DNA of 64,000 nucleotides. Source: Bacteroidota bacterium (GTDB lineage Bacteria > Bacteroidota > Bacteroidia > Cytophagales > Cyclobacteriaceae). The position numbers and the translations under genes are program-made. Positions within the stretch are counted from its first letter, which is position 1, and each line of letters begins with the position of its first letter. The notes under the pieces are model-generated. The model ran no database searches. It had not been told where the DNA came from and saw only the letters and a list, made by a program, of their open reading frames with translations. Positions 11,221 through 41,054 of the stretch are shown one piece after another. The DNA is taken from assembly GCA_018267285.1 (NCBI GenBank), contig JAFDYU010000015.1, forward strand, positions 1-64,000. Direction: 5' to 3'.

Positions 11221-11233
11221 TTACATTTGAAGC

Positions 11234-12019
11234 ATGGACTTAAACCTATCCGGTAAGAATGCGTTGGTGTGCGGGAGCACGCAAGGTATTGGTAAGGCTT
11301 CGGCTGTAGAGTTGGCATTGCTCGGAGCATCCGTTATACTGTTGGCCCGCGATGAAGAAAAACTAAAGGCAGCGGCCACAGAACTTCCCACTCCTGAAAA
11401 TCAAAAACACAAGTATGTAGTTGCCGATTTCAATTTTCCGGAAAAAGTAAAATCGGAAATTGAAAAATTAGTAGCACAAAACGACATCCATATTCTTGTA
11501 AACAATACAGGAGGCCCGCCCGCAGGCCAAGCCATTGATTCCAAGACGGAAGATTTTTTATCAGCGATCAATGCTCATTTAATATGCAGCCAGATTTTGG
11601 TTCAGGCTTGCGTGCCCGCGATGAAAAAAAATAAGTACGGAAGAATAATTAACATCATTTCTACTTCCGTAAAAATTCCGATCAAAGGGCTTGGGGTTTC
11701 AAATACAGTTCGCGGGGCAATGGCAAGCTGGTCGAAAACACTTTCGCTTGAGCTTGCTCCGTTTGGAATTACAGTGAATAACGTTTTGCCGGGCAGCACC
11801 AAGACGGGCCGGATCGAGTCGCTCATCCAAACCCGGGCGAAAAAATCAGGAAAAACAGAAAATGAAATCCGGCAGGAAATGATTGATGAAATCCCCGCAG
11901 GCCGCATGGCCGAGGCGAGTGAAGTGGCATCGGTGGTGGCCTTTCTAAGTTCACCCGCAGCCGGCTATGTCAATGGTGTGAGTGTGCCCGTAGATGGCGG
12001 AAGGACAGGAAGTTTGTAA
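11234..12019 (+). CDS. SDR family oxidoreductase with altered catalytic tetrad
   Basis: The 261-residue protein has a Rossmann fold with the dinucleotide loop VCGSTQGIGKA (residues 12-22), an NNTGG motif in place of the usual NNAG, and the C-terminal GVSVPVDGG that closes FabG-like SDRs. The canonical YxxxK dyad is absent: the aligned positions are Ser156 and Arg160 in GVSNTVRGAM. Ser143/Ser145 remain before it. A recognised subgroup of FabG-like SDRs shares this loss, so the product need not be a ketoacyl reductase. The aldehyde dehydrogenase downstream suggests a shared catabolic role, perhaps in aromatic or tryptophan breakdown; that is inference. Confidence 0.85.
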   Translation: MDLNLSGKNALVCGSTQGIGKASAVELALLGASVILLARDEEKLKAAATELPTPENQKHKYVVADFNFPEKVKSEIEKLVAQNDIHILVNNTGGPPAGQAIDSKTEDFLSAINAHLICSQILVQACVPAMKKNKYGRIINIISTSVKIPIKGLGVSNTVRGAMASWSKTLSLELAPFGITVNNVLPGSTKTGRIESLIQTRAKKSGKTENEIRQEMIDEIPAGRMAEASEVASVVAFLSSPAAGYVNGVSVPVDGGRTGSL

Positions 12020-25890: not shown

Positions 25891-27531
25891 ATGAAAAGAC
25901 GTGATTTTATTCAACTAACAGGAGCTGGTTTGGGCGGAGCTTTTATGCCGGCATTTGTTCCGGGCAATCTGGTTTCGCTTCAATCGTTACTAGATAATCC
26001 TCTTTTAAATTCACAAAAAAAATCGTTGGCCGATGTGGCCCTCAACACTGCTAAAAGCCTAAGTGCAACGTATGCCGATGTGCGCATCGGGCGCTACCTC
26101 AATCAATTCATCAGCACGCGCGAAAGCAGAGTGCAGAATATTGTCAACACCGAATCGTTTGGCGTTGGGGTGCGCGTTATCGTCAACGGCACCTGGGGGT
26201 TTGCGGCAACAAATGAGGTAACGGTAGATGGAATTAAAAAAGCCACGGAGCGTGCAGTTGCAATAGCTAAGGCAAATTCAAAATTTCAAAAAGAGCCCGT
26301 AAAACTTGCCCCTACTCAAAGCTATGGCGAAGTAACCTGGAGCACACCTCTTCAAAAAAATTCGTTTGAAGTTCCGGTATCCGAGAAAGTGGATTTACTG
26401 CTGCGCACCAATGCAAACGCATTGAAAAACGGAGCAAGCTTCGCAAACTCAAACCTCTTTCAGGTGAACGAGCAAAAATATTTCGCTTCTACCGATGGAT
26501 CGTATATCGATCAGGATGTACATCGTATCTGGCCCACCTTCACGGTCTCTGTTATAGATCGTGCCTCAGGCAAATTCAAATCGCGCGATGCCATGAGTGC
26601 ACCCATGGGCATGGGTTATGAGTACCTGATTCCTAAACAAGAAGACAAGCTTGCAGGACCCGATGGAATGATTTTGTATCGCAACAGCTACGACCTGGTT
26701 GAAGATGCCGGCATTGCAGCACGGCAGGCCAAAAATAAGTTAGCAGCAAAATCGGTTGAGCCCGGAAAATATGATCTAGTGTTGGAGCCCAATCATTTGG
26801 GGCTCACCATCCATGAATCGGTAGGCCACCCGCTGGAGCTCGATCGTATTTTGGGATATGAAGCCAATTATGCCGGAACCAGCTTTGCTTCTTTAGACAA
26901 ACTTAAATCGGGAAACTTCAACTACGGAAGCAAACAGGTGAACATTGTTGCCGACAAAACCCAACCCGGTTCTTTGGGTGCAGTTGGCTACGATGACGAA
27001 GGCGTTAAATGCAAGCGCTGGGAACTTATCAAAGATGGAGTGTTTGTAAACGTTGAAGCGATCCGAGACCAAGTGCACATTGTTAACCAAAACGAATCGC
27101 ACGGATGTTGCTACGCACAAAGCTGGAGCGATGTGCAATTTCAACGTATGCCCAACGTATCGCTACTGCCCGGCAAAGAATCGTACTCCAGCGAGCAAAT
27201 GATAAAAGACATTGAAAAGGGAATCTACATTGCCGGCCGTGGGTCGTACTCCATCGATCAGCAACGATACAATTTTCAATTTGGCGGTACTGTTTTTTAC
27301 GAAATTAAAAACGGACAAATAGCCGGCATGCTCGATGATGTGGCTTATCAATCGAATACCCAGGAATTTTGGAACAGCTGTGCAAAAATTTGTGATGAAA
27401 AAGAATATCGCCTTTTCGGTTCATTCTTTGATGGCAAAGGTCAGCCTTCGCAAATAAGTGCCGTGTCGCACGGAAGCTCACCGGCACGCTTTAACGGAAT
27501 AAATGTGATTAACACCGGAAGGAAATTGTAA
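25891..27531 (+). CDS. TldD-type metalloprotease with Tat signal, paralogue 1
   Basis: The 546-residue protein opens with a twin-arginine signal (MKRRDFIQLTGAGLGGAFMP). A TldD fold follows, with the zinc motif HESVGH at residues 308-313 (HExxxH). A conserved cysteine in the C-terminal QEFWNSC segment is a likely third zinc ligand, as in E. coli TldD. Known TldD/TldE heterodimers trim unfolded or linear peptides, including RiPP precursors such as microcin B17. E. coli TldD is cytoplasmic, whereas this protein should be exported folded. It heads the D-D-E series; the next paralogue starts 65 bases after its stop and is very similar along its whole length. Confidence 0.92.
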   Translation: MKRRDFIQLTGAGLGGAFMPAFVPGNLVSLQSLLDNPLLNSQKKSLADVALNTAKSLSATYADVRIGRYLNQFISTRESRVQNIVNTESFGVGVRVIVNGTWGFAATNEVTVDGIKKATERAVAIAKANSKFQKEPVKLAPTQSYGEVTWSTPLQKNSFEVPVSEKVDLLLRTNANALKNGASFANSNLFQVNEQKYFASTDGSYIDQDVHRIWPTFTVSVIDRASGKFKSRDAMSAPMGMGYEYLIPKQEDKLAGPDGMILYRNSYDLVEDAGIAARQAKNKLAAKSVEPGKYDLVLEPNHLGLTIHESVGHPLELDRILGYEANYAGTSFASLDKLKSGNFNYGSKQVNIVADKTQPGSLGAVGYDDEGVKCKRWELIKDGVFVNVEAIRDQVHIVNQNESHGCCYAQSWSDVQFQRMPNVSLLPGKESYSSEQMIKDIEKGIYIAGRGSYSIDQQRYNFQFGGTVFYEIKNGQIAGMLDDVAYQSNTQEFWNSCAKICDEKEYRLFGSFFDGKGQPSQISAVSHGSSPARFNGINVINTGRKL

Positions 27532-27596
27532 CAAGGAAATGATATCGCTTACAACAGACTTTCAAAAATTAGATTAACCGATTAACCAAAAATTAA

Positions 27597-29237
27597 ATGA
27601 AGAGACGAGATTTTATTCAACTCACGGGCATGAGTGCGGGCGCCATGATGATGCCGTTCACCTCATTTGCTAGCCCTGTAGAGCTATCGCGGCTGCTCGA
27701 TCCGCTTATGGATGTGCAACAGAAAAAACAACTGGCCGATATCGCGCTGAACACAACCAAATCGTTGGGGGCAACCTACACCGATGTGCGCATTGGCCGA
27801 TACCTCAACCAATTTGTAATTACGCGCGAAAAAAAGGCGCAGAACATCGTCAACACCGAATCTTTTGGTGCGGGTATACGTGTGATTGTAAACGGCACGT
27901 GGGGCTTCGCGGCCAGCAATAATGTAACAGCCGAGGGAATAAAGAAAACAGCCGAACGCGCGGTTGCAATTGCTAAAGCAAATTCAAAATTTCAAAACGA
28001 ACCGGTGAAACTTGCGGCAACGCCTTCGTATGGCGAAGTAAGCTGGAAAACTCCAATCGTAAAAAATGGTTTTGAAGTTCCGGTAAAAGACAAAGTCGAT
28101 CTGCTGCTCAGCGCAAACGCCAAGGCTATGGAGAAAGGCGCCAACTTTGTAAACAGCATTATGTTTTTGGTGAACGAACAAAAATACTTTGCCTCTTCCG
28201 AAGGCTCGTACATCGATCAAGATGTCCATCGTACGTGGCCCAACTTTAATGTCAACGTAGTCGATCGGGCTTCGGGCCAATTCAAAAGCCGTTCTGCTTT
28301 CAGTGCCCCTGTAGGCATGGGCTACGAATACCTCGATGGCAAAGCCGAAGACAAAATTGAAGGGCCGGGAGGAATTATTTTGTACAACAAATCGTACGAC
28401 ATTGTTGAAGATGCAGGCATGGCCGCTGAGCAAGCCAAACAAATGGTAACAGCCAAATCGGTAGAACCGGGCAAATACGATCTGGTGCTGGAACCTTCGC
28501 ACCTGTGGCTCACCATTCATGAATCGGTTGGCCACCCCACCGAACTCGACCGTGTTCTCGGCTACGAAGCCAACTATGCGGGCACCAGTTTCCTCACGCT
28601 TGACAAATGGCAATCGAAGAAATTTAATTTCGGAAGTAAGATTGTAAACATCGTAGCCGACAAAACACAGCCCGGATCGCTCGGTGCGGTGGCGTATGAT
28701 GACGAAGGTGTAAAATGCAAAAAGTGGGATTTGATTAAAGACGGAATTTTAGTCAACTACCAGGCGATCCGCGATCAGGTGAATATCATCGGGCAAAAAG
28801 AATCGCACGGTTGTTGTTATTCGCAAAATTGGAGCGATGTACAGTTTCAACGTATGGCCAACGTGTCTCTCCAACCCGGCAAAGAACCGTTAACACCTCA
28901 GCAGATGATCGCTGGTGTTGAGAAGGGAATTTACATTGTGAAAAACGGCTCATTCTCCATCGACCAACAGCGTTACAATTTTCAGTTTGGCGGAGTACTG
29001 TTCTTCGAAATAAAGAATGGAAAAATCGAAGGGATGCTAAAAGATGTAGCCTATCAATCAAACACACAAGAGTTTTGGAATTCCTGTGCACAGATTTGCG
29101 ATGAGCGCGATTACCGATTGAATGGCGCATTTAATGATGGCAAGGGTCAGCCCGGCCAGTCCAATGCCGTTTCGCACGGATCGGCTACCGCACGGTTTAA
29201 TGGCGTAAACGTAATTAATACCGGAAGAAATATATAA
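27597..29237 (+). CDS. TldD-type metalloprotease with Tat signal, paralogue 2
   Basis: The 546-residue protein is collinear with the preceding one and shares long identical runs (for example FNFGSKIVNIVADKTQPGSL against NFNYGSKQVNIVADKTQPGS), so the two arose by tandem duplication. It keeps the twin-arginine start MKRRDFIQLTGMSAGAMMMP, the HESVGHPTE zinc motif and the C-terminal NSC cysteine. The loop after the zinc motif reads TSFLTLDKWQSKKFNF, closer to paralogue 3 than to paralogue 1, so paralogues 2 and 3 are probably the nearer pair. It is followed 92 bases later by a TldE gene, the probable partner. Confidence 0.92.
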   Translation: MKRRDFIQLTGMSAGAMMMPFTSFASPVELSRLLDPLMDVQQKKQLADIALNTTKSLGATYTDVRIGRYLNQFVITREKKAQNIVNTESFGAGIRVIVNGTWGFAASNNVTAEGIKKTAERAVAIAKANSKFQNEPVKLAATPSYGEVSWKTPIVKNGFEVPVKDKVDLLLSANAKAMEKGANFVNSIMFLVNEQKYFASSEGSYIDQDVHRTWPNFNVNVVDRASGQFKSRSAFSAPVGMGYEYLDGKAEDKIEGPGGIILYNKSYDIVEDAGMAAEQAKQMVTAKSVEPGKYDLVLEPSHLWLTIHESVGHPTELDRVLGYEANYAGTSFLTLDKWQSKKFNFGSKIVNIVADKTQPGSLGAVAYDDEGVKCKKWDLIKDGILVNYQAIRDQVNIIGQKESHGCCYSQNWSDVQFQRMANVSLQPGKEPLTPQQMIAGVEKGIYIVKNGSFSIDQQRYNFQFGGVLFFEIKNGKIEGMLKDVAYQSNTQEFWNSCAQICDERDYRLNGAFNDGKGQPGQSNAVSHGSATARFNGVNVINTGRNI

Positions 29238-29329
29238 TATCGTAGATGTGCAGATGACTGATTTAAAAAACGATTTTAGCTTCTAAACACAACGAAAAAA
29301 TCTAATAAAAACTAATAACGAAATTAATT

Positions 29330-30664
29330 ATGGCAATACTTTCAAAAGACGAAGCCCAGCAAATCCTGAAAAAGGTTATCGGCTTCTCTAAGGCAGACGG
29401 AATTCAAGCCAACCTAAACGGCAATGATGGTGGGAACATCCGCTATGCGCGAAACAGTGTGTCTACGTCTGGCGAAGACAGTAACGTGGGCTTAGGTGTG
29501 CAATCGTATTATGGAAAAAAATCCGGCACGGCAACGATCAATGAATTTGATGACGCCTCGTTGGAAAAGGTAGTTAAGCGCTCGGAAGAATTGGCTCAGC
29601 TTGCTCCTGAAAACCCAGAGTTCATGGAACCACTGGGTCCGCAAACATACGGAGGCGAGTCAAAGACCTGGTCTGAACAAACCGCAAAAATTACTCCCGA
29701 ATACCGCGCTCAGGCTGCTGCCAACAGCATTGGCCCAGCTTCTAAAAAAGAAGTAACGGCCGCAGGGTTTCTCGAAGACAACCGCGGGTTCAACGCCATG
29801 ATGAACAGCAAGGGATTGTTTGCCTACAACAAAGCCACGGGGGTGGATTTTACCGTGACTATGCGCACCAACGATGGCACCGGCTCCGGATGGGCTGCGC
29901 GCACCAACAATGACGTAAGCAAAATAAATACAGCAGATGCTTCTGCTGTTGCCATTGAAAAGGCGCTCTCTTCCAGAAACGCAAAGGCTCTTGAACCCGG
30001 AAAATACACCGTTGTTTTAGAGGCTGCTGCTGCCGCAGATTTAGTTCGGTTAATGCTCAACATGAACGCTCGACAAGCCGATGAAGGGAGAAGTTTTTAT
30101 TCTAAAAAAGGTGGCGGCACAAAACTCGGTGAGAAGATTGTTGACGAGCGCGTGAATATTTACACCGACCCTTGGCACGATGAAGTACCCTCCTCTCCCT
30201 GGGCGGGCGATGGCCAAGCTCGCAAAAGAATGGATCTGATAAAAAACGGAGTAGTGTCCAATCTTTTTTACGATCGCTATTGGGCATCTCAGAAAAACGT
30301 TGCCCCAGTTCCGTTTGGTGGAAACACCATCATGCAAGGAGGTACTGCTTCCATTGAAGATATGATTAAAGACACGAAGCGAGGAGTGCTTGTAACGCGC
30401 TTCTGGTACATTCGCCCCGTTGACCCGCAAACGCTCCTGTACACCGGGCTTACGCGAGACAGTACATTTTATATTGAAAACGGAAAGATCAAACACCCGA
30501 TAAAAAACTTCCGCTTCAACGAAAGCCCCATCATTATGCTGAACAACCTGGAGACTCTTGGGAAACAAGAACGTGCCGTTACCAGTGAGGGCAACCCCAA
30601 CGGGCTCATCCCCTCTATGAAGATCCGCGATTTTACTTTTTCAAGTTTATCGGATGCAATCTGA
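29330..30664 (+). CDS. TldE/PmbA-type subunit, paralogue 1
   Basis: The 444-residue protein belongs to the TldE (PmbA) branch. It shares the TldD fold (VRYARN-like NIRYARNSVSTSGEDS near the N-terminus, DERVNIYTDPW in the middle, KIRDFTFSSLSDAI at the end) but has no HExxxH zinc motif, as expected for the non-catalytic partner in the TldD/TldE complex. It starts MAILSKDEAQQILKKVIGFS with no signal peptide, unlike the TldD proteins beside it. The gene ends just before a strong terminator, so tldD1-tldD2-tldE1 look like one transcription unit. Confidence 0.9.
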   Translation: MAILSKDEAQQILKKVIGFSKADGIQANLNGNDGGNIRYARNSVSTSGEDSNVGLGVQSYYGKKSGTATINEFDDASLEKVVKRSEELAQLAPENPEFMEPLGPQTYGGESKTWSEQTAKITPEYRAQAAANSIGPASKKEVTAAGFLEDNRGFNAMMNSKGLFAYNKATGVDFTVTMRTNDGTGSGWAARTNNDVSKINTADASAVAIEKALSSRNAKALEPGKYTVVLEAAAAADLVRLMLNMNARQADEGRSFYSKKGGGTKLGEKIVDERVNIYTDPWHDEVPSSPWAGDGQARKRMDLIKNGVVSNLFYDRYWASQKNVAPVPFGGNTIMQGGTASIEDMIKDTKRGVLVTRFWYIRPVDPQTLLYTGLTRDSTFYIENGKIKHPIKNFRFNESPIIMLNNLETLGKQERAVTSEGNPNGLIPSMKIRDFTFSSLSDAI

Positions 30665-30685
30665 TTTTTAATAATCCGAAATACT

Positions 30686-30714
30686 AAGCCCCTGTCAATG
30701 ACAGGGGCTTTTTT
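30686..30714 (+). terminator. Rho-independent terminator after tldE1
   Basis: CCCCTGT (30689-30695) and ACAGGGG (30701-30707) form a perfect stem with loop CAATG; flanking A and T bases extend it, followed by TTTTTT. It lies 22 bases after the stop codon of the TldE gene. Confidence 0.9.
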
Positions 30715-31033
30715 ATTAAAGGCTTCTATAACTATTACAGATAATAAAATAAAGAAATACGGGGTTTTTCCTGTTGTTTACAATTTAGGAAAAGAATTAT
30801 TTTTGATTGCTCAGATCCTAATAGCTTTAATTGCTTTTAATAATGATTTCTTGGTATTACTTAGCTATCCTTATGATCAATTTGTAGATAAGATTTATGA
30901 CAAATGTTTTAACATCTTTTCATGTTGCTGGCTTTCGCTTCTGCCTTCTTCTGGGCAAGCGTGCGAGAGAATACAATTAGTTTAATAAAGATCCCAAAGA
31001 CAGAACTCTATTTAAAATCACACAAACAAAAAT
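30715..31033. other. Intergenic region with possible promoter, no CDS
   Basis: These 319 bases separate the tldD-tldD-tldE unit from the beta-barrel gene. A 95-codon open frame crosses it but begins inside the terminator stem, is rich in rare-looking hydrophobic runs and ends without homology signals, so I do not call it. A Bacteroidota-type promoter, TTG (30774-30776), 21 bases, TATTTTTG (30798-30805), is present and would leave a leader of about 220 bases before 31034. Confidence 0.35.
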
Positions 31034-31792
31034 ATGTTCAATAAAATAACGCGATATACGTTGGCAACGATGTTGGCTATACTTGGAGCCGCTTCGTTAC
31101 CAGTTTCAGCGCAGATATCTGTCGGAGCCAAGTTGGGTGCAAACCTTAACCAGTTTTCTCAGCCCGGCACAACGATAGGTTTTTCTGCAGGTGCTTTTGC
31201 TTCTTACCGGATCACTAGTTTCCTCAATGTAAAGGTGGAACCTCAATACACCTTACAAGGCGGAGCCCGGCAAACCTACTACAGAGATTATAGTTCTTTG
31301 GGTGGTAACGTCTCCTCAGTAGAATTTATTAACCCCAACATAACCATGCATAACATTGAGGTACCTCTGTTGGTGGAATTGACCTTGCCCGAATTTGCCG
31401 AGGAAAATGTCATTCCGAAATTGATTGTAGGGGGATCTTACACCTTTATGGCACAAGCTATTGAATCGCGTACGGAACGATTCATTTTTACAGGCACACC
31501 CACACCTCCTGCTGTTGACGTTGGTTATCAGCATGAAGATGTAACGGATAACTATACCCGAAATCAATTCAGCGCAATAGTTGGCTTAGGGGTTATGTTT
31601 AAAACGGATAAACGTGATTTCCAGTTTGATATCCGTTACCGTCAAGGGTTTTCGCAAGTGAATCTTATTAAATTCCCGGACGCCATTCAAAAGACGAGTA
31701 GCTCCAGCTCAATACCAGCTAATGGGGTGGGGGGAAATCTCTTTACCTCAACATTGAGTTTTAATTTTTCTATGACAATTTTTAATTTCTAA
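31034..31792 (+). CDS. PorT-like outer-membrane beta-barrel protein
   Basis: The 252-residue protein has a signal peptide ending near LPVSAQ (about residue 27). The mature N-terminus ISVGAKLGANLNQFSQPG leads into alternating strands such as SFLNVKVEPQYTLQGGARQT and DFQFDIRYRQGFSQVNLIKF. It ends with a strand finishing in aromatic residues (SFNFSMTIFNF), the usual barrel-insertion signal. It fits the small eight-strand barrels (OmpW/PorT-like, often DUF-labelled) common in Bacteroidota. The lipoprotein gene starts 17 bases later, so they form a two-gene unit between the two tldDE sets. Confidence 0.85.
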   Translation: MFNKITRYTLATMLAILGAASLPVSAQISVGAKLGANLNQFSQPGTTIGFSAGAFASYRITSFLNVKVEPQYTLQGGARQTYYRDYSSLGGNVSSVEFINPNITMHNIEVPLLVELTLPEFAEENVIPKLIVGGSYTFMAQAIESRTERFIFTGTPTPPAVDVGYQHEDVTDNYTRNQFSAIVGLGVMFKTDKRDFQFDIRYRQGFSQVNLIKFPDAIQKTSSSSSIPANGVGGNLFTSTLSFNFSMTIFNF

Positions 31793-31809
31793 ACTCCAAA
31801 CACACAAAC

Positions 31810-34053
31810 ATGAAAAAACTATTTTCTATTTTAATCGGAACGGCTCTGGTCGCAGCCGTCATCATTGCCTGTAAAGACAACTTTAACGAGAGCGATTTTT
31901 TAAAGCTTCAATCACAACTTAAAACTCAGCAGGATTCTGCCAAGCTTAATCAACAACTAAAGCAGTTGAACGATGCCGGTGAACTACTTTCTTTTACCGT
32001 GCAAGTAGTGGAAGACCGCACACCATTGGCGGATGTTGATGTTCAAATATCAAACGATGTAACTTCCGGAACTGCCAAGGTTACCACCGATGCCAACGGT
32101 AATGCCATCTTCACCAAGGTCCGTGTAGGTAGCAATACCGTTATCCTGAGCAAATCGGGGTACATCACTACAACGGCTGTAGTAGATTTCGGGTCGCTCA
32201 CTAATTTCTACACAACGGTTACCGGAGCAAATGGCTCGATCAACGTTGTTGCGTTAAAACAATCTCGTTCTTGCATCCTTCCTTTGTTTTCTATAGGTGG
32301 CACGGGTAGCACCGCTACAATTACCGGCAAAGTCACCATTGAAAACGACCTCACAAATACTACCCCGGAAATCCCACAGAACATAACACTAAAAGCCAAT
32401 TATGCTAGCGGCCTAACCACTGCTGTGCCCGGTACCGGTGTAACTATTAACTCGTATAGTTTTAATAACGGAGGCATTGGGACAGCAACGGTCGATAATA
32501 CAACCGGCAATTATACCATGATTGTTCCTGCATTAGCCGCAGGGCTTTCTATGAGCTTGATTGTACCTGAAATTGAAGGCAACTTAAAGCTTGCTGCCAA
32601 CACCGTAGATGGGCAACCCGCCAACGGGCAACCTGCTCCGCAAATTTTTCCTGCTGCTATGTTAAGTATGCCAACACAATGGGGAAATTTAGTAGCCGGA
32701 TATGATGTTACTATCCCTACAGTGGTTGGTGCCAAAGCTGTTTTCCCAGCTCCCCCTCCAGCCGGAGCTGGTTTATCGTTTACCATGTCTGCGTTAGCGA
32801 GACCTTTGGGTGTAGCTGCTGACGGAGTAACACCATCAACCTGGGATACGTACAATTTTGGAATTGATCCGGGTGACCCCACCCAATTTGACGTTGCACA
32901 AACGGCTTACCAGCTAACCACACGGGGATCCGGATATACGGCTTCGCCTACGGTTACGGTTACAGGCGGTGGTGGTTCCAATGCAGTAATGAAGGCCAGC
33001 TTACGCGGATATTTAACCGGGTTGACTATTAATGCGGGTGGAACTGGTTACGATGGCTCGAATATTACTGTAACTTTTTCTTATGTCGACAACAATTCCG
33101 TTACGTATGATATGATTTTCCCTTCTTGCGCGGTTACTGTAAGTGCTGGAGCTCTTGCTACGATCACGTTGCCTACATTTAGTTCGCCTTGGCAAACCGT
33201 TGTAGCTAATAGTGTTGCCGGGTATAATGTAGCAAGCTTTAAAGCAACAATTAGTGGTGGGGCTGGCACAGGAGCTACAGTTACTCCTGTATTCTCTGCC
33301 GAAGTAGATCACATCAAACTTGAAAAAGCCGGAACCGGATTTAATGCTGCCCCCACAATAACATTTACAGGCGGAGGCGGAACCACCCAAGCAACTATGG
33401 CTGTAAAAGAATTTAGAACGCAATGGTCTGTTGCGCCAAACAACACCACAAACACTACGCCTTACTCAATTTTGCCAGATAATATCACTTGGCAATACAA
33501 TCAATTAAATGGTGGTATTTTTACAGAGAATCGTGTTTATGACAAGGAGAACAATATATCATTCTACAATGATGATATACAGGCTTCCGATGGCCAGGTA
33601 ATACACCTGGATCCTACAAAAACATTTAGAACGTTCAGTTTTAATCAAGTTCAACCGGTACCGATAATTACTTCAAGCCCTTCCACTCAGGCACAGGCCA
33701 ATCTAAATATCAATTCAAATGGGCAGATTCCTTCCATTTTTAGTACCAATAATGGGAGAGGATATTCAACACCTCCTACGGTAACAATTCAACCAATGGT
33801 TACAGGTGCCCCCGGCAGCGGAGCTGTAATAGATCTTTCCGGCAGCATCGGCTACAACAGCAAAACCGGTGAATATAGCTGGGGCGGTGGTTCAACTGTT
33901 CTTACAACTGGCACTGGCTACGCACAGTTCGTAAACAAACAGCCATATGTTCCTTATGCAGGGCCTGCATCTACTTTCACAGTAAAAACAGGAGAAACAA
34001 CGGTTCAAAATATTGTTTATGGAACAGGTAAGAGAAAGCAACAGGTGAACTAA
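31810..34053 (+). CDS. Large repeat-containing lipoprotein with CarboxypepD-like domain
   Basis: The 747-residue protein has a lipoprotein signal (MKKLFSILIGTALVAAVIIAC) with lipidation at Cys21. A short coiled coil (LQSQLKTQQDSAKLNQQLKQ) comes next, then an Ig-like carboxypeptidase-regulatory domain (about residues 58-125). The middle and C-terminal parts contain at least three copies of a degenerate glycine-rich motif G-x-G-Y/F-x(2-3)-P-T-V/I-T: RGSGYTASPTVTVTGGGG, AGTGFNAAPTITFTGGGG and NGRGYSTPPTVTIQP. I know no function for it. Its position between two TldD/TldE sets makes it a candidate partner or substrate of the exported protease. It is strongly Thr/Asn/Gly-rich, unlike its neighbours. 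Confidence 0.85.
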   Translation: MKKLFSILIGTALVAAVIIACKDNFNESDFLKLQSQLKTQQDSAKLNQQLKQLNDAGELLSFTVQVVEDRTPLADVDVQISNDVTSGTAKVTTDANGNAIFTKVRVGSNTVILSKSGYITTTAVVDFGSLTNFYTTVTGANGSINVVALKQSRSCILPLFSIGGTGSTATITGKVTIENDLTNTTPEIPQNITLKANYASGLTTAVPGTGVTINSYSFNNGGIGTATVDNTTGNYTMIVPALAAGLSMSLIVPEIEGNLKLAANTVDGQPANGQPAPQIFPAAMLSMPTQWGNLVAGYDVTIPTVVGAKAVFPAPPPAGAGLSFTMSALARPLGVAADGVTPSTWDTYNFGIDPGDPTQFDVAQTAYQLTTRGSGYTASPTVTVTGGGGSNAVMKASLRGYLTGLTINAGGTGYDGSNITVTFSYVDNNSVTYDMIFPSCAVTVSAGALATITLPTFSSPWQTVVANSVAGYNVASFKATISGGAGTGATVTPVFSAEVDHIKLEKAGTGFNAAPTITFTGGGGTTQATMAVKEFRTQWSVAPNNTTNTTPYSILPDNITWQYNQLNGGIFTENRVYDKENNISFYNDDIQASDGQVIHLDPTKTFRTFSFNQVQPVPIITSSPSTQAQANLNINSNGQIPSIFSTNNGRGYSTPPTVTIQPMVTGAPGSGAVIDLSGSIGYNSKTGEYSWGGGSTVLTTGTGYAQFVNKQPYVPYAGPASTFTVKTGETTVQNIVYGTGKRKQQVN

Positions 34054-34076
34054 GTATTTCTTTTAATAATTTATCA

Positions 34077-34114
34077 AGAGGCTGTCTCGAAAAAAGACAG
34101 CCTTTTGTTTTTTT
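34077..34114 (+). terminator. Rho-independent terminator after the lipoprotein gene
   Basis: AGGCTGTCT (34079-34087) pairs perfectly with AGACAGCCT (34095-34103) around a 7-base loop, followed by TTTG and a run of T. It ends the beta-barrel/lipoprotein unit 25 bases after the stop codon. Confidence 0.9.
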
Positions 34115-34204
34115 TCTGAAGAAATTCGGTTTCAGGCTACACAACTTTTTTTTAAATTGGTCGTCTTAGATTAAGTTCAACTATCATCCTAACCCAAAAA
34201 AATT

Positions 34205-35842
34205 TTGAAACGTAGAGATTTTATTTACCTCACGGGCATGGGTACAGCTGCTACCCTGATTCCCGGCATCCCGGTTGTCGGCAGACCGATAGATCCGATG
34301 CAACTGCTCGAAAGCATTGATCTGGCATTAAAGAAACGCATGGCAGATGTGGCTCTGAATGCGGCACGCTCCAAAGGCGCCACCTATACCGATGTGCGCA
34401 TTGGGCGTTACCTCAACCAGTTTGTAATAACCCGCGAAGACAAAGTGCAAAACATTGTCAACACCGAATCGTACGGTATGGGCATCCGGGTAATTGCCAA
34501 CGGAAGCTGGGGTTTTGCAGCTACCGACAAACTCGATAACGACAACATTGCAAAAACTGCAGAGCTTGCCGTTTCCATTGCAAAAGAAAATTCGCGCTTG
34601 CTCACCGAGCCGGTACAACTTGCCCCACAAAAAGGACACGGGGAAGTGAGCTGGAAAGCACCCATTGAAAAAAATGCATTTGAAGTTCCCATCAAAGAAA
34701 AAGTGGATCTGCTGCTAAGTGTTAATGACGCGGCCATGAAAGCAGGAGCCGATTATGTTAATTCCTTACTCTTCATGGTTAACGAACAAAAATATTTTGC
34801 TTCTACGGATGGATCTTACATCGATCAGGATATCCACCGGATGTGGCCTGTGTTTTTCATCACTACCATTGATAAGGCTACCGGCAAATTTGAAACTCGA
34901 AATTCGTTGAGTGCTCCCGTAGGTATGGGCTACGAATATTTAAATGCCCGTCCTCAAGATAAAATTCAGGGTGTAACCACTCTGTACCGTGGACGGTATG
35001 ATATGCTTGAAGACGCAAAAGCTGGAGGTGCACAAACCAAAGAAAAGTTGAAAGCTAAATCCGTTGAAGCCGGAAAATACGATCTGATTCTCGATCCCTC
35101 ACATCTATGGCTCACCATTCACGAATCAACCGGCCATCCGTCTGAACTCGACCGTGTGCTTGGCTACGAAGCCAACTTTGCGGGCACTAGTTTCCTTACA
35201 CTGGATAAATGGAAATCGAAAAACTTCAACTACGGAAGCAAGCTGGTAAATATTGTGGCCGACAAAACACAGGTGGGTTCACTGGGTGCTGTAGGTTACG
35301 ATGACGAAGGTGTGAAATGTGGCCGATGGGACATTATTAAAGATGGTATTTTGGTTAATTATCAAGCCATTCGAGATCAGGCACACATTCTTGGCCTCAA
35401 TGCCTCGCAAGGCTGCTGCTATGCCGACAATTGGAGTAGCGTCCAGTTTCAACGGATGCCCAACATTTCGCTGCAACCGGGCAAAGAAAAGAAAAGTGTG
35501 GACGACTTGATCAAAGGCGTGGAGAAAGGAATTTACATTGTGGGCGATGGATCTTTTTCCATCGATCAACAACGCTACAATTTCCAATTTGGTGGCCAGT
35601 TGTTTTACGAAATTAAAAACGGAAAAATTACCGGCATGCTGCGCGATGTAGCCTATCAATCCAACACGCAAGAGTTTTGGAATTCTTGTGTTGGCATAGC
35701 CGATGAAAGCGACTACCGGTTGGGTGGTTCTTTTTTTGACGGCAAAGGTCAACCCTCGCAGAGCAGTGCTGTATCTCACGGTTCTTCCACGGCACGTTTC
35801 AACGGAGTAAATGTAATTAACACCTCACGCAAAATCGGATAA
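34205..35842 (+). CDS. TldD-type metalloprotease with Tat signal, paralogue 3
   Basis: The 545-residue protein starts at a TTG (34205); the next codons give KRRDFIYLTGMGTAATLIPG, a twin-arginine signal aligned exactly with those of paralogues 1 and 2. No ATG gives the same N-terminus, and the downstream sequence is family-like from the first residues. The zinc motif reads HESTGHPSE (HExxxH kept) and the C-terminal QEFWNSC cysteine is present. It is more diverged from paralogues 1 and 2 than they appear to be in the N-terminal half, so an older duplication is likely. The partner TldE gene starts two bases after its stop codon. Confidence 0.92.
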   Translation: MKRRDFIYLTGMGTAATLIPGIPVVGRPIDPMQLLESIDLALKKRMADVALNAARSKGATYTDVRIGRYLNQFVITREDKVQNIVNTESYGMGIRVIANGSWGFAATDKLDNDNIAKTAELAVSIAKENSRLLTEPVQLAPQKGHGEVSWKAPIEKNAFEVPIKEKVDLLLSVNDAAMKAGADYVNSLLFMVNEQKYFASTDGSYIDQDIHRMWPVFFITTIDKATGKFETRNSLSAPVGMGYEYLNARPQDKIQGVTTLYRGRYDMLEDAKAGGAQTKEKLKAKSVEAGKYDLILDPSHLWLTIHESTGHPSELDRVLGYEANFAGTSFLTLDKWKSKNFNYGSKLVNIVADKTQVGSLGAVGYDDEGVKCGRWDIIKDGILVNYQAIRDQAHILGLNASQGCCYADNWSSVQFQRMPNISLQPGKEKKSVDDLIKGVEKGIYIVGDGSFSIDQQRYNFQFGGQLFYEIKNGKITGMLRDVAYQSNTQEFWNSCVGIADESDYRLGGSFFDGKGQPSQSSAVSHGSSTARFNGVNVINTSRKIG

Positions 35843-35844
35843 TC

Positions 35845-37179
35845 ATGACCCTACTAACCAAAGACGAAGCCTTTGCTTTATTGAAAAAAGTGCTGGCCTA
35901 TTCCAAAGCCGATGAGTGCGAAGTAAACCTCTCGGGTACCAACAACAGCAACATTCGCTATGCCCGCAATGCGGTGTCTACCAGCGGAAGTGTAAGCCAG
36001 TTTCAGTTGGTTGTTCAATCGGCCTTCGGCAAAAAATCAGGCGTAGCAACCATCAATGAATTTGACGATGCCTCGTTGGAAAAAGTGGTGCGCAGATCGG
36101 AAGAACTGGCGCAGCTCGCTCCTGAAAATCCGGAATACGTTTCTATCCTCGGCCCTCAAAAATATGCAGAGGCTATAACGTTTGTTCCGGCTACTGCAGC
36201 CATCACGCCAAAAATGCGTGCCGATGCCGTGGCCCAAAGTTTGCAAACGGCAAAAGAAAGTAAAGCAGTTGCCGCGGGTTTTCTGGAAGACAGCAATGGG
36301 TTCTCAGCCTTGATGAACTCCAAAGGCTTGTTCGCCTACAACACTTCTACAAACACAAATTTTTCTATTACCGTAAGAACCGAAGATGGCAAAGGTTCCG
36401 GATACGCCACACGCGGATACAACGATGTAACCAAACTCGATACCAAACTTGCCACTAAAATAGCGGCCGATAAAGCTGTGAAGTCTGCTGCGGCTAAAGC
36501 CATCGAACCTGGCAAGTACACGGTTATTTTGGAACCCGCTGCTGCTGCCGTTTTGCTCGAACGTATTTTTTTCGGGCTTGATGCACGCCAAGCCGATGAA
36601 GGGCGCAGCTTTTTAAGTCTGCCGGGCGGCAAAACAAGATTAGGCGAAAAATTGGTTGACGAACGGGTGAACATTTATTCGGATCCACTAAATCCCGAAC
36701 TGCCGACCAGCACCTGGAATGGCGATGGCCGACCACAAGAAAAAATTTCTTGGATTGAAAAGGGAGTTGTAAAAAACCTGAGCTACTCCCGATACTGGGC
36801 AGAGAAGAAAGGCGTGAAGCCGGTGCCCGGCCCCGATGCCGCCATTATGGAAGGCGGCACAAAATCAATAGAAGAATTGATTGCCGGCACCAAGAAAGGG
36901 GTGCTCGTTACCCGGCTGTGGTACATCCGCGATGTGGATCCACAAAGCTTGTTGCTCACAGGCCTCACGCGCGATGGCACTTTCTACATCGAGAACGGGA
37001 AAATTCAATACCCGATAAAAAATTTCCGCTTCAACGAAAGCCCGGTAATCATGCTCAACAATTTAGAAGAGCTTGGCAAACCCGAGCGAACCGTAAGTGT
37101 GGAATCGAATGCCAACTATCTCCTGCCTCCGATGAAGATTCGCGACTTTACCTTCTCAAGCTTATCCGATGCGGTGTAA
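35845..37179 (+). CDS. TldE/PmbA-type subunit, paralogue 2
   Basis: The 444-residue protein is a full-length paralogue of the one at 29330, of the same length, sharing ATINEFDDASLEKVV, EELAQLAPENPE, DERVNIYSDP and the identical C-terminal core MKIRDFTFSSLSDA. No HExxxH motif and no export signal are present. The 2-base gap from tldD3 means translation of the two is probably coupled, supporting equal production of heterodimer subunits. A strong terminator follows 27 bases after the stop, although DUF4159 and the MoxR genes continue on the same strand. Confidence 0.9.
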   Translation: MTLLTKDEAFALLKKVLAYSKADECEVNLSGTNNSNIRYARNAVSTSGSVSQFQLVVQSAFGKKSGVATINEFDDASLEKVVRRSEELAQLAPENPEYVSILGPQKYAEAITFVPATAAITPKMRADAVAQSLQTAKESKAVAAGFLEDSNGFSALMNSKGLFAYNTSTNTNFSITVRTEDGKGSGYATRGYNDVTKLDTKLATKIAADKAVKSAAAKAIEPGKYTVILEPAAAAVLLERIFFGLDARQADEGRSFLSLPGGKTRLGEKLVDERVNIYSDPLNPELPTSTWNGDGRPQEKISWIEKGVVKNLSYSRYWAEKKGVKPVPGPDAAIMEGGTKSIEELIAGTKKGVLVTRLWYIRDVDPQSLLLTGLTRDGTFYIENGKIQYPIKNFRFNESPVIMLNNLEELGKPERTVSVESNANYLLPPMKIRDFTFSSLSDAV

Positions 37180-37205
37180 AGAATCACTTGCAACAGTCTG
37201 TTCTG

Positions 37206-37236
37206 CAATCCCCGTATATGCGGGGATTGTTTTTTT
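37206..37236 (+). terminator. Rho-independent terminator after tldE2
   Basis: CAATCCCCG (37206-37214) pairs perfectly with CGGGGATTG (37221-37229) around TATATG, followed by TTTTTTT. It separates the tldD3-tldE2 pair from the MoxR gene run. Confidence 0.9.
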
Positions 37237-37311
37237 CATGGCATTCTTTCGTCTACAACCGTTTGTATAATTTCAAATGGGCTTTGAATTTTGTCCTCCA
37301 ACTTGCACAAG

Positions 37312-37935
37312 ATGAAGGTCTCGGATAAATTTTTTTTTACACGGCTTCAGTACGAGTCGGGCGACTGGGATGTGGACCAGCGAATGCCTTCCAATGTTTT
37401 AAATTCGCTGATCGAATATACCACCCTGGAAGTGGAAACCCGTGAAAATATTATTGCCCTGAGCAGCGATGAAATTTTTCGTTGCCCTTTTTGTTATCTG
37501 AGCGGCCATAAACTGGTGGAATTCACTGTCAAAGAGCGCGAAAATTTTGAAAAATATGTAACCAACGGAGGCTTTGTTTTTGTGGACGACTGCAACCACG
37601 ACATTGATGCCCTGTTTGCAAAGTCTTTCGAAGCCCAAATGGAAAAAATCTTCGGAACTACGGCTTTGAAAAAAATAGCAAACAACCACCCGCTTTATTC
37701 CGCTTTCTTTTCGTTTGACGGCCCGCCTGCCACCGCTCAAGAACTCAACGGCTGGGGAGACGACATTGTGCACGATTACCTAAAAGCTGTCGAAATCAAG
37801 AATAAAATTGCCGTGCTTTACAGCAATAAAGATTATGGGTGCGAGTGGGATTATGATTTCAGAAACAAACGCTTTTACCGAATCGACAATACCCGGTTTG
37901 CCGTGAACCTCGTAATGTACGCTTTAACCAGTTAA
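37312..37935 (+). CDS. DUF4159 domain protein
   Basis: The 207-residue protein starts MKVSDKFFFTRLQYESGDWD; an ATG 7 codons upstream is open but less family-like. DUF4159 proteins resemble class I glutamine-amidotransferase-like folds and contain a conserved FVDDCN segment (here GGFVFVDDCNHDIDALFAKS) and a CEWDYDFRN motif near the C-terminus. The YESGDWDVD start is typical of the family. The function is unknown, but DUF4159 genes are repeatedly found beside MoxR, DUF58 and BatA genes. It leads a seven-gene run here, 9 bases before the MoxR gene. It has no signal peptide. Confidence 0.85.
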   Translation: MKVSDKFFFTRLQYESGDWDVDQRMPSNVLNSLIEYTTLEVETRENIIALSSDEIFRCPFCYLSGHKLVEFTVKERENFEKYVTNGGFVFVDDCNHDIDALFAKSFEAQMEKIFGTTALKKIANNHPLYSAFFSFDGPPATAQELNGWGDDIVHDYLKAVEIKNKIAVLYSNKDYGCEWDYDFRNKRFYRIDNTRFAVNLVMYALTS

Positions 37936-37944
37936 TTATTTTAC

Positions 37945-38946
37945 ATGACGGATATACAGACCCTTGAGAAATCAGCAGCCGAAACAATAGCCCATCTCCA
38001 TCGCCTCAAGCAGGAGATCAAAAAAGTAATTGTTGGGCAAGACGACATCATTGATCAAATGCTGATCACTTTTTTAGCACAAGGCCACGCTTTGTTTGAG
38101 GGCGTGCCCGGCTTGGCCAAAACATTGATGATTCGCAGCTTATCCGAAGCAATTGATTTAAAATTCAGACGAATACAATTCACTCCCGATCTGATGCCCT
38201 CGGATATTATCGGCACCGAAATACTTGAAGAAGATCACACCACGGGCAAACGGATTTTCAAATTCAATCAAGGACCGATTTTTGCCAACATTATTTTGGC
38301 CGATGAAATCAACCGCACCTCGCCCAAAACACAATCGGCTTTGCTCGAAGCCATGCAAGAATTTGAAGTGACGTATGCCGGCACCACGTATCCCTTAGAG
38401 CAACCTTTTTTTATTCTCGCCACTCAAAATCCAATTGAGCAGTCGGGCACTTTCCCTTTGCCCGAAGCACAACTGGATCGTTTCCTGATGTATATAAAAG
38501 TAGCCTATCCAACGGCCGAAGAAGAACGGCACATCCTTGAAAAAACTACGGGCAAAAAAGGGGATACCATTCATAAAGTTATCGATCGAAACAAAATCAT
38601 AGACGCACAAAAATTGGTGCGCGAAGTTCACATCAGCAGCGACTTGATTGACTGGGTGAGCCGGTTGGTACGAAGCACACGGCCACAACAAGGCAATACT
38701 TTTGTTGACGAGTGGGTGCGCTGGGGCGCAGGTCCGCGTGCAGGCCAGGCAATGATTCTTACGGCAAAGGCCAGGGCTATTCTTCAAGGTAATTTTTCAG
38801 TAACACAAAACGATATTCAGCAGGTAGCTTACCCGGTGTTGCGGCATCGCATCTTGATGAATTTCAAAGCCGAGGCCGAACGCGTCAGCGCAGACAGCAT
38901 AACACAACATCTTTTGCAACACGTTAGCTTGCCCAAAACTTTATAG
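37945..38946 (+). CDS. MoxR family AAA+ ATPase
   Basis: The 333-residue AAA+ protein has Walker A GVPGLAKT (residues 53-60), Walker B IILADEINR (116-124) and the sensor region FILATQNPIEQSGTFPLPEA. MoxR proteins are chaperone-like ATPases that work with von Willebrand/DUF58 proteins to mature or insert metal cofactors and fold envelope proteins. The DUF58 gene begins 3 bases after its stop codon, the standard MoxR partner arrangement. Confidence 0.95.
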   Translation: MTDIQTLEKSAAETIAHLHRLKQEIKKVIVGQDDIIDQMLITFLAQGHALFEGVPGLAKTLMIRSLSEAIDLKFRRIQFTPDLMPSDIIGTEILEEDHTTGKRIFKFNQGPIFANIILADEINRTSPKTQSALLEAMQEFEVTYAGTTYPLEQPFFILATQNPIEQSGTFPLPEAQLDRFLMYIKVAYPTAEEERHILEKTTGKKGDTIHKVIDRNKIIDAQKLVREVHISSDLIDWVSRLVRSTRPQQGNTFVDEWVRWGAGPRAGQAMILTAKARAILQGNFSVTQNDIQQVAYPVLRHRILMNFKAEAERVSADSITQHLLQHVSLPKTL

Positions 38947-38949
38947 ACT

Positions 38950-39846
38950 TTGGATGCGCGCATCAAACATCTGCTCAAGCCCGAAATTCTCCATACCGTA
39001 AATGGCCTCGAACTGATTGCGCGCATCATTGTGGAAGGATTTATGAGCGGCAGCAACAAAAGCCAGTCTGTTGGTACCGGTCAAGAATTCAGCCAGTATA
39101 AAAATTATCAGCCGGGCGATGACCTTCGTTCGTTAGACTGGAAAATGTTTGCGCGTTCCGAACGCTACTACATCAAACAAGCCGAAATTGAAACCAACAT
39201 CACCGTAAAATTTATTATAGATGCCAGCCAATCGTTGAGCTATGCCGAAAATGGTTTAAGCAAATTAGAGTACGCTAAGGTTATGACTGCGGCATTGGCT
39301 TATCTCGCGCGAAAACAAGGCGATACGTTCGGTTTGTTTTCTGTAAACGACAAACATTTAAAAGTAATTCGTCCGCGCTTTGAGCAGCAACATTTTATAC
39401 GCTTTTTAAACGAACTCGTTCATTTAAAGTGTGAAGGCGGTTGGATTAAGAACGAAAAAGTTGATCAATGGCTCGATCACCACGGGAAAGAAATGATTAT
39501 TTTCATTACGGATTTATACGACAACGATAAGGACTTGTTCAATTTCATTTCTCGTTTAAAAACTTCGCGTAACGAAGTCATCGTCTTTCATCTGATGGGC
39601 AAGCACGAAACAGATTTTGATTTCGATGGTTCTTTCACTTTCGAAGATCTGGAAAGTGGATTGCGTACCAAAGCCAACACATCGGTTCAACTCAAAGAAT
39701 ACACAAAAAAAATTCAAGAATGGTTACAGCATTCGAGGATGTGGATGCTGGAAAAGCAAATCAATTATCAGCTTGTACTTCTCCACGAGCCTGTGGAAAC
39801 GATGTTACGAGATTTTCTTAACGCCCGCAAAAGGTTGGTGCGATGA
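38950..39846 (+). CDS. DUF58 protein (MoxR partner)
   Basis: The 298-residue soluble protein carries the DUF58 signature: SVGTGQEFSQYKNYQPGDDL followed by RSLDWKMFARSERYYIKQAE, then a vWA-like fold with FIIDASQSLSY, the metal-site-like DASxS segment. The start is TTG at 38950; the encoded N-terminus (DARIKHLLKPEILHTVNGLE) aligns well with other DUF58 proteins, and no ATG gives it. DUF58 and vWA proteins bind MoxR ATPases and may deliver clients. It overlaps the next gene by 4 bases (ATGA). Confidence 0.92.
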   Translation: MDARIKHLLKPEILHTVNGLELIARIIVEGFMSGSNKSQSVGTGQEFSQYKNYQPGDDLRSLDWKMFARSERYYIKQAEIETNITVKFIIDASQSLSYAENGLSKLEYAKVMTAALAYLARKQGDTFGLFSVNDKHLKVIRPRFEQQHFIRFLNELVHLKCEGGWIKNEKVDQWLDHHGKEMIIFITDLYDNDKDLFNFISRLKTSRNEVIVFHLMGKHETDFDFDGSFTFEDLESGLRTKANTSVQLKEYTKKIQEWLQHSRMWMLEKQINYQLVLLHEPVETMLRDFLNARKRLVR

Positions 39847-41054
39847 TTCTCACCAACCCTATCTATCTGGCAGCTTTGGCGGGTTTAGCAATACCCATTG
39901 CCATCCATTTGCTCAGTCGTAAAGAAGGCAAGGTTATAAAATTGGGCAGTATCCGGCATATCGTTGAAACCAATACACAACAGTTTAAGGGCATCCGGTT
40001 AAATGAAATTTTATTACTTTTTTTGCGCTGTGCTCTTATCGTTTTGCTGTGCTTTTTATTGAGCGGTCTGAAGTGCACTAGTAAACCAAAAGAAAAATGG
40101 TTGGTGGTGGAAAAAGGGCTCGACTTAAAACCGTTTGGTTTATTTATCGACAGCCTAAATAAAGAGGGCTATGAAAATCATCTACTCGCCAATGGCTTTC
40201 CTTTATTAAAAGACAGCGACAATTTTTTTTCAAAAATCAACTATTGGAAGTTGGCCGATGAACTGAATGAAAAAAATTTATTACAGGTTGTTGTATTAGC
40301 TATGAACCGCATTCAAGGATTCGATGGCAAAAAAACAGCGCTTGCACAGAACATCCGTTGGATCAGCCAGGAGTTACCCCCGAAGAAATTTCAACTTGCT
40401 GCAATTAAAAAATCGAATGACACGGTTATTGTAAGGACCGGCCATTCCAATGCCAATGCAACATACTTTGATAACACAAATACAACTGATCCGTTTGTTT
40501 CTGAGCGTCCGTTGGTGCAAGAAACGTTAAACATCGCCCTCGTAGCCGATACTGTTTTTTGGTACGACAAAAGAATAATCTTGGCCTCATTGAAAGCCAT
40601 TGAAAAATCGATTCCTGTCAAAATAAAAATTCACGAATTAACTTCCTTAAAAACACCCACCGATTCGGTTGATTGGTGCATCTCTCTCACTTCAGATCCT
40701 TTCGATAAAATCAAATCAAAAAATTTTATCTTTTTAAATATTCAACAGTCTGATGAAATTTTAGCGCAACAGTTTGTTCATCGTTGGATGCTCACTAAGC
40801 GATTAAATGAAGAAACAGCTCTTGACGAAAATTTTACGCTCAAGCTGGCTTTGTTGTTGTTGCCCGGTAAGTCGCTTGGGCAAATTGCTACTTTATCCGA
40901 CAGACGAATGCTCCCCGACTCTCTCGCCTGGTCTACTTCATCTGCTTTAAAAACTCAGGCAACGGTCTATGCACCAGCCGATCCATACCTTCTTTTGGCA
41001 TTTCTTATTTTGTTGTTGGCCGAACGAGCCCTTGCTTACCACCGCAAACAATGA
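39843..41054 (+). CDS. BatA-like membrane protein
   Basis: The 403-residue protein begins with the aerotolerance-regulator N-terminal domain: TNPIYLAALAGLAIPIAIHL, a conserved basic loop (SRKEGKVIKLGSIRHI) and a second helix (LNEILLLFLRCALIVLLCFL). A large periplasmic part follows, and a C-terminal helix (YLLLAFLILLLAERALAYHR) closes it, with the Ala-Glu-Arg motif typical of Bat proteins. BatA-type proteins belong to MoxR/DUF58 gene clusters and are thought to act in envelope stress tolerance or protein maturation. It overlaps both neighbours by 4 bases, implying translational coupling. Confidence 0.85.
   Translation: MILTNPIYLAALAGLAIPIAIHLLSRKEGKVIKLGSIRHIVETNTQQFKGIRLNEILLLFLRCALIVLLCFLLSGLKCTSKPKEKWLVVEKGLDLKPFGLFIDSLNKEGYENHLLANGFPLLKDSDNFFSKINYWKLADELNEKNLLQVVVLAMNRIQGFDGKKTALAQNIRWISQELPPKKFQLAAIKKSNDTVIVRTGHSNANATYFDNTNTTDPFVSERPLVQETLNIALVADTVFWYDKRIILASLKAIEKSIPVKIKIHELTSLKTPTDSVDWCISLTSDPFDKIKSKNFIFLNIQQSDEILAQQFVHRWMLTKRLNEETALDENFTLKLALLLLPGKSLGQIATLSDRRMLPDSLAWSTSSALKTQATVYAPADPYLLLAFLILLLAERALAYHRKQ

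Follow-up and report, generated by a model that had tools for sequence, protein, structure and literature searches.

Characterised TldD/TldE peptidases act in the cytoplasm. In Escherichia coli, TldD and TldE (PmbA; MEROPS M103, PDB 5NJ5) form a hollow dimer that trims unfolded peptides, with modified peptides and CcdA41 as the known substrates, and the role of these conserved genes has been described as elusive (PMC5810440). In positions 1–64,000 of the forward strand of contig JAFDYU010000015.1 from a Bacteroidota bacterium of the Cyclobacteriaceae (GCA_018267285.1), hereafter the window, three TldD and two TldE genes lie in one block adjoining a module of MoxR ATPase and von Willebrand factor A (VWA) type genes. 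The features described below make it reasonably probable that these are periplasmic peptidases of the M103 type, with the signal on TldD and TldE co-exported, within an envelope MoxR/VWA module. In reaching this assessment the signal on TldD, which resembles those of the twin-arginine translocation (Tat) pathway, and the MoxR module carry more weight than copy number or cysteines.

The window proteins share with the E. coli pair the same three Pfam domains, the HExxxH zinc motif of TldD and its absence from TldE, together with the aligned clamp residues and the GK of the ligand motif of TldD. They differ from it in the Tat-like signal on TldD, in reading DGK for CGK and in the adjoining MoxR module, and the genes, which lie apart in E. 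coli, are adjacent and multiplied here. All five exceed the curated Pfam gathering scores for PF01523, PF19290 and PF19289 and the genome (3.33 Mb, 97.7% complete) yields no further PF01523 match; their scores lie far below the cut-offs of the NCBIfam equivalogs for E. coli-type TldD and PmbA (D1 132 against 635 bits, and 83 against 513 bits). An initial annotation had described the order D-D-E, barrel, lipoprotein, D-E at 25891–37179, with all zinc motifs of the three TldD intact, and both the order and, by Pfam and alignment, the gene identities and motifs were confirmed. The Tat-like N termini of TldD, the MoxR module immediately downstream and the three terminator-like hairpins separating the gene groups had gone unremarked in it. 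Identity to D1 is 73% for D2 and 67% for D3, and E1 and E2 are 64% identical (lengths below in amino acids, aa).

25891..27531, + strand: D1, TldD copy 1; 546 aa, N terminus MKRRDFIQLTG (Tat-like), HESVGH; PF19289/PF01523/PF19290 over cut-off
27597..29237, + strand: D2, TldD copy 2; 546 aa, Tat-like N terminus, HESVGH, Asp514 in DGK motif
29330..30664, + strand: E1, TldE copy 1; 444 aa, without HExxxH, no signal peptide seen
34205..35842, + strand: D3, TldD copy 3; 545 aa, TTG start, Tat-like KRRDFIYLTG, HESTGH
35845..37179, + strand: E2, TldE copy 2; 444 aa, without HExxxH, no signal seen; likely partner of D3 (distance co-variation)

Translation of D3 begins at a TTG codon at 34205, and non-ATG starts at KRRDF recur among relatives.

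Export-like signals in TldD/TldE pairs

Related loci (labelled L) were the best 80 of 579 confirmed TldD-profile matches, with more beyond those listed, and together with the window they supplied 127 TldD and 108 TldE sequences. A phylum sample comprised 296 Bacteroidota genomes (labelled G), whose fetched stretches overlap the 80 loci (e.g. L088 and L013), so that counts from the two are not independent. G023, with stops in its frames, was left out, and 11 weakly matching genomes left unfetched (G065, G081, G123, G150, G165, G172, G181, G232, G240, G248 and G311) were taken as not type 1 because none attains the type-1 TldE score. Type 1 denotes the TldD/TldE of the window, type 2 the canonical type and type 3 a Sec-like type with the motif HEIFGH.

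Tat-like signals were called from a twin-arginine regular expression together with Kyte-Doolittle hydropathy, with "hydrophobic" referring to the Kyte-Doolittle window. The three TldD of the window begin KRRDFI(Q/Y)LTG, and RRxF followed by a hydrophobic residue occurs in 125 of the 127 TldD, the two misses being L063, which reads RRDFA, and L020, which has a truncated start. The motif is followed by a moderately hydrophobic stretch. In the fetched phylum sample all 52 type-1 TldD carry RR.F (43) or RK.F (9). Against the Tat model NCBIfam TIGR01409 (cut-off 16.7 bits), 11 of 20 type-1 N termini matched at E ≤ 1, four at or over the cut-off (best 19.3 bits, E 0.0011) and seven below it, and three of four canonical-type N termini matched, two over the cut-off (best E 4.4e-07). 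None of six TldE N termini matched the model. Likewise, RR.F or a hydrophobic N terminus was found in none of 51 TldE of types 1 and 2, where the best 13-residue hydropathy mean was 1.23 as against at least 1.98 in 25 type-3 rows, and the 108 TldE from the 80 loci and the window had no signal-like N terminus (highest 13-residue mean 1.47). The catalytic TldD thus appears to bear an export-like, Tat-like signal and TldE none. TatC is encoded in all 39 genomes searched as relatives, the window's own included, and so has no discriminating value.

In the E. coli complex PaoABC the signal is on one subunit only. The distribution of signals in the tld pairs would fit such hitchhiker export through Tat (described for PaoABC in PMC4273604), and TldE would most likely fold with TldD in the cytoplasm and then be exported with it. 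The same arrangement is found in the Bacteroidota canonical pairs (type 2, e.g. L110 and L116), in which all eight TldD with an adjacent TldE have RR.F and the partner TldE has no signal; for the 14 canonical-type TldD without RR.F no adjacent TldE was detected by the profiles used. Type 2 differs from type 1 in its Cys ligand (CGK) and in scoring 330–365 bits to E. coli TldD as against 37–74 in the same search, and no MoxR module was flagged in the fetched type-2 stretches. In the relatives examined from Nonomuraea, Mycobacterium and Burkholderia, CGK is present and RR.F is lacking.

Type 3 was found at 24 loci of Bacteroidota genomes (L106, L107, L112, L114, L141 and L146–L164), with proteins of about 570 aa that carry HEIFGH and strongly hydrophobic, Sec-like N termini and in which no CGK or DGK motif was found. 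At 17 of these loci an inactive partner was identified, and every one of the 17 partners has a signal-like N terminus itself; in L141 and L147 this N terminus emerges only when translation is taken from an internal start of the listed frame, and that of L141 contains an RRTF motif. Type 3 is apparently a separate exported Tld pair. If the heterodimer is exported folded through Tat, one signal per Tat pair and two per Sec-like pair would be expected, as is seen, and the two kinds of pair would offer a natural experiment on such co-export.

The MoxR module and its co-occurrence with tld genes

Few clients of the MoxR family are known. Together with VWA partners, MoxR-like ATPases assist in remodelling and in the insertion of metals, NorQ being the case studied (PMC13036017), and effects on envelope or membrane integrity and on morphology are described for Rhizobium RL3499–RL3502 in PMC5700661 and PMC3893208. 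In the window the tld block is followed by six genes.

37291..37935, + strand: DUF4159 protein, first gene of the MoxR module (PF13709, E 2.4e-50)
37945..38946, + strand: MoxR-family AAA+ ATPase (PF07726, E 8.1e-63)
38950..39846, + strand: DUF58 (VWA-like) protein (PF01882)
39843..41054, + strand: BatA-type membrane protein (PF07584/TIGR02226), about three transmembrane segments predicted from hydropathy
41051..43261, + strand: p736, DUF4175-related membrane protein of 736 aa (PF13779), the marker co-occurring with core-type tld
43254..45008, + strand: p584, membrane protein of 584 aa with no Pfam family and partial fold matches only

MoxR, DUF58 and BatA-type genes are adjacent here as in the Bat operon of Bacteroides and in RL3499–RL3502 (cmdA-D) of R. 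leguminosarum. To these the window adds the adjoining TldD/TldE genes, a separate DUF4159 gene, and p736 and p584. Of the 80 loci, 65 have genes for DUF4159, MoxR and DUF58 downstream of tld, and in nine of the other 15 less than 3.5 kb of sequence is left.

DUF4159 was considered as a marker of the module and set aside as too common (214 of the 296 genomes), p736 being taken instead. A second DUF4159 protein is encoded beyond the window (G000:C19:155116-155688). The p736 profile found a full-length protein in 24 of the 296 genomes and a contig-end fragment in G273. The remaining matches listed are partial and below 100 bits, mostly in proteins of about 1100 aa, and no best p736 match outside those 25 genomes has E < 1e-28. 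The 25 are the genomes with core type-1 tld genes, 24 of them by a TldD above 850 bits, a limit chosen after the scores were known, and G304 counted on the strength of a TldE fragment lying next to DUF4159 and MoxR; p736 is absent from all 271 genomes without core-type tld. The Fisher value for this co-occurrence is 7e-37 and ignores relatedness and linkage. Stronger support comes from the variation in presence and absence of tld and p736 within families and even genera (G087 as against G223; G113 and G230 as against G148), and from unlinked loci, since in one family (G116, G162, G170, G174 and G304) p736 is on another contig than tldD or, in G162, more than 100 kb away, these being draft assemblies. 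Because of the remodelling role of MoxR/VWA proteins and the envelope effects of the Rhizobium operon, the tld enzymes most likely belong to an envelope module with this machine.

The active site of type-1 TldD

HExxxH is intact in all 127 TldD, and E1 and E2 lack it. In E. coli TldD the third metal ligand is Cys454, and Asp is noted in some TldD and allowed for as a third ligand (both in PMC5810440). Cys454 sits in a CGK motif, and at the corresponding motif 126 of the 127 TldD read DGK (Asp514 in D2). The placing of Asp514 opposite Cys454 is based on the shared GK step, on the clamp partners E316 and D318, which align with E. coli E270 and D272, and on Cys-bearing relatives, namely L144 (from G307; TldD at 10355–11950), which reads CGK in the same column of the within-family alignment and is otherwise of type 1 with a Tat-like N terminus, and L168 (Nonomuraea), with NCGKGQPG for the NDGKGQPG of D2. 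As Asp is known in some TldD, DGK is a departure from the E. coli enzyme and not from the TldD/PmbA family.

The initial annotation took intact C-terminal cysteines as a sign of activity, which does not hold: Cys497, conserved in 125 of 127 TldD, lies outside the DGK motif. It is plausible that the enzymes are active, owing to the intact HExxxH and to Asp being permitted as a ligand rather than to the cysteines. The Asp ligand was also considered as an adaptation to the periplasm, an idea rejected as a rule, with eight Tat-type canonical TldD and L144 keeping Cys.

Recurrence, paralogue lineages and pairing

The array forms seen over the fetched stretches of the 80 loci are DE (52), DDEDE (15), DEDE (9), DDE (3) and DEDEDE (1), and the Tld family is present in 20 of the 39 genomes searched as relatives, the window's own included. 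Arrays with an undamaged zinc helix are found in records from several genera, the outcome that the initial annotation had named as support, and the contrary outcome that it named, an array unique to this genome with dead copies, is contradicted by the 15 DDEDE loci and by HExxxH in every TldD row.

In a midpoint-rooted maximum-likelihood tree of 69 selected TldD the D2 of the arrays form one group (100/100), D1 joins the single-copy TldD of Flavobacteriaceae and other families in a joint group (97/91), and D3 joins the later TldD of Spirosomataceae and Leadbetterellaceae (100/99). The TldE tree (53 rows) mirrors this in its split between E1 and E2. By these trees D1, D2 and D3 are separately conserved lineages. 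L022, labelled as an uncultured Chitinophaga, clusters with Ohtaekwangia in both trees and is perhaps a mislabelled bin. Thirty-nine alignment columns differ among D1, D2 and D3, each at least 85% uniform within a copy, two of them in the N-terminal extension. At position 304 D1 has Gly where D2 and D3 have Trp, and this column aligns with E. coli residue 258, which falls between the S1′ pocket residues 256 and 259 (listed in PMC5810440). The earlier suggestion that several catalytic copies were kept and differently tuned is supported by the recurrence of the array, by the separate groups in the trees and by differing columns of which some lie beside the S1′ pocket.

Distances in D3 and E2 correlate at 0.92 in a mirror-tree comparison of 16 arrays, and their partial correlation is 0.85 after removal of the MoxR and DUF58 signal in 12 arrays. 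Over the same 12 arrays the other partial correlations are 0.29 (D1-E1), 0.33 (D2-E1), 0.17 (D1-E2), 0.02 (D2-E2) and -0.12 (D3-E1). From these values E2 is the likely partner of D3, and D1 and D2 probably pair with E1.

Proposed function and alternative readings

If TldE is carried through Tat with TldD, the hollow D:E dimer would trim unfolded peptides in the periplasm, as is the activity of the E. coli enzyme, with His-His-Asp replacing His-His-Cys as its metal ligands. D3:E2 would be a dedicated pair and D1 and D2 would probably share E1, and it is proposed that the three TldD lineages are retained because their substrate clefts differ. The enzymes would then form one module with the MoxR ATPase, DUF58, the BatA-like protein, the DUF4175 protein and p584, probably an envelope-maintenance machine. 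This would provide two handles, one on the site of action of many Bacteroidota TldD/TldE and one on the partner of this MoxR module.

Several observations weigh against a periplasmic enzyme tied to the MoxR module. On the side of export, the TldD of the window score only 15.1, 15.1 and 15.9 bits with TIGR01409 (45–46 residues) against its cut-off of 16.7, nine of the 20 type-1 N termini have no match to it at all, and RK replaces RR in nine of the 52. On the side of the module, the full downstream set is missing in six of the 80 loci despite room, and four divergent type-1 genomes (G042, G201, G244 and G307) are without full-length p736, which shows that the enzyme can exist without the module; the terminator-like hairpins listed below suggest, further, that the tld genes and the MoxR module do not share one transcript. 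On the side of the enzyme, two automatic alignments set Lys516, two residues away from Asp514, opposite Cys454, the Asp ligand is uncoupled from export, and the pairing signals of D1 and D2 with E1 are weak.

The export points, together with the signal-less TldE and the cytoplasmic location of characterised TldD/TldE, would fit ordinary cytoplasmic enzymes of general peptide turnover with a non-working arginine-rich N terminus, and PMC5810440 contains neither "periplasm" nor "signal peptide". This is rather unlikely, since almost every type-1 TldD retains the motif across large divergence, as do the eight canonical-type TldD beside TldE, whereas the three relatives read, from Actinomycetota and Burkholderia, are without it, and it is not evident why a protein that stays in the cytoplasm should conserve it. 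Nor need the copies be tuned to different substrates, for D1, D2 and D3 could be interchangeable and serve dosage only, as their 67–73% identity to D1 and the array forms DE, DEDE, DDEDE, DDE and DEDEDE, indicative of repeated duplication, would allow. Such a role is unlikely given that the paralogues group across genomes and not as recent species-specific copies, that 39 columns differ with some at the cleft, and that D3-E2 distances are far better correlated than those of other pairs. Processing of microcin or CcdA, the analogy drawn in the initial annotation, would place the locus among systems for ribosomally synthesised and post-translationally modified peptides (RiPPs) or toxin–antitoxin pairs, in line with the known substrates. 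The export-like signal on TldD is ill-suited to the removal of leaders in the cytoplasm, the neighbours typed are MQO, glutamate dehydrogenase and the MoxR module, which is also what the 80 loci share, and no RiPP enzyme is among the typed neighbours, short precursor genes being outside the search; this reading is very improbable.

A further variant keeps export and assigns the MoxR and DUF58 proteins to assembly of the protease, with metal loading or the joining of TldD and TldE taking place in the cytoplasm before Tat export, and with p736, the BatA-like protein and p584 receiving or feeding the complex on the far side of the membrane. Metal insertion in the NorQ case (PMC13036017) is a precedent, and the variant is possible if doubtful; were it true, the locus would encode a pathway dedicated to maturing and exporting a periplasmic metallopeptidase and would supply a MoxR client.

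Returning to periplasmic peptidases within an envelope module, no account of an exported TldD was found among the literature matches listed, which mostly leave out subscription papers, and the sole match among them to both TldD and twin-arginine is unrelated. It is fair to say that the "undescribed system" of the initial annotation stands, within the literature searched, for the exported MoxR-linked form and falls for the protease family, which is well described.

Other features of the block

The remaining features between and after the tld genes are a pair of other genes and three terminator-like hairpins.

30686..30710, + strand: terminator-like hairpin after D1-D2-E1; 11 pairs, T-rich tail (pattern match)
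31034..31792, + strand: outer-membrane beta-barrel protein (PF13568), forming an additional unit within the array together with the following gene
31810..34053, + strand: predicted lipoprotein, 747 aa; lipobox-like VIIAC, weak carboxypeptidase-regulatory-like domain below the Pfam cut-off
34075..34107, + strand: terminator-like hairpin after barrel-lipoprotein; 13 pairs, T-rich tail (pattern match)
37205..37230, + strand: terminator-like hairpin after D3-E2; 11 pairs, T run (pattern match)

The barrel and lipoprotein were considered as members of the system and found unsupported: apart from the window, L008 alone of the 80 loci has the pair labelled within its array, and their membership is further weakened by the pair's own terminator-like hairpin. 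For p584 the best whole-length fold matches reach a TM-score of 0.10–0.17, the best partial match being 2gk3, a Salmonella protein of 248 aa (0.49–0.52 by target length), and the structure model of p736 is weak (mean pLDDT 72, pTM 0.34).

Terminator-like matches overall number 16 against a shuffle mean of 15.2, i.e. without excess, and reliance is therefore placed on the length and position of the three hairpins. From these it looks as though D1-D2-E1, barrel-lipoprotein and D3-E2 form transcription units from which the MoxR module is apparently separate.

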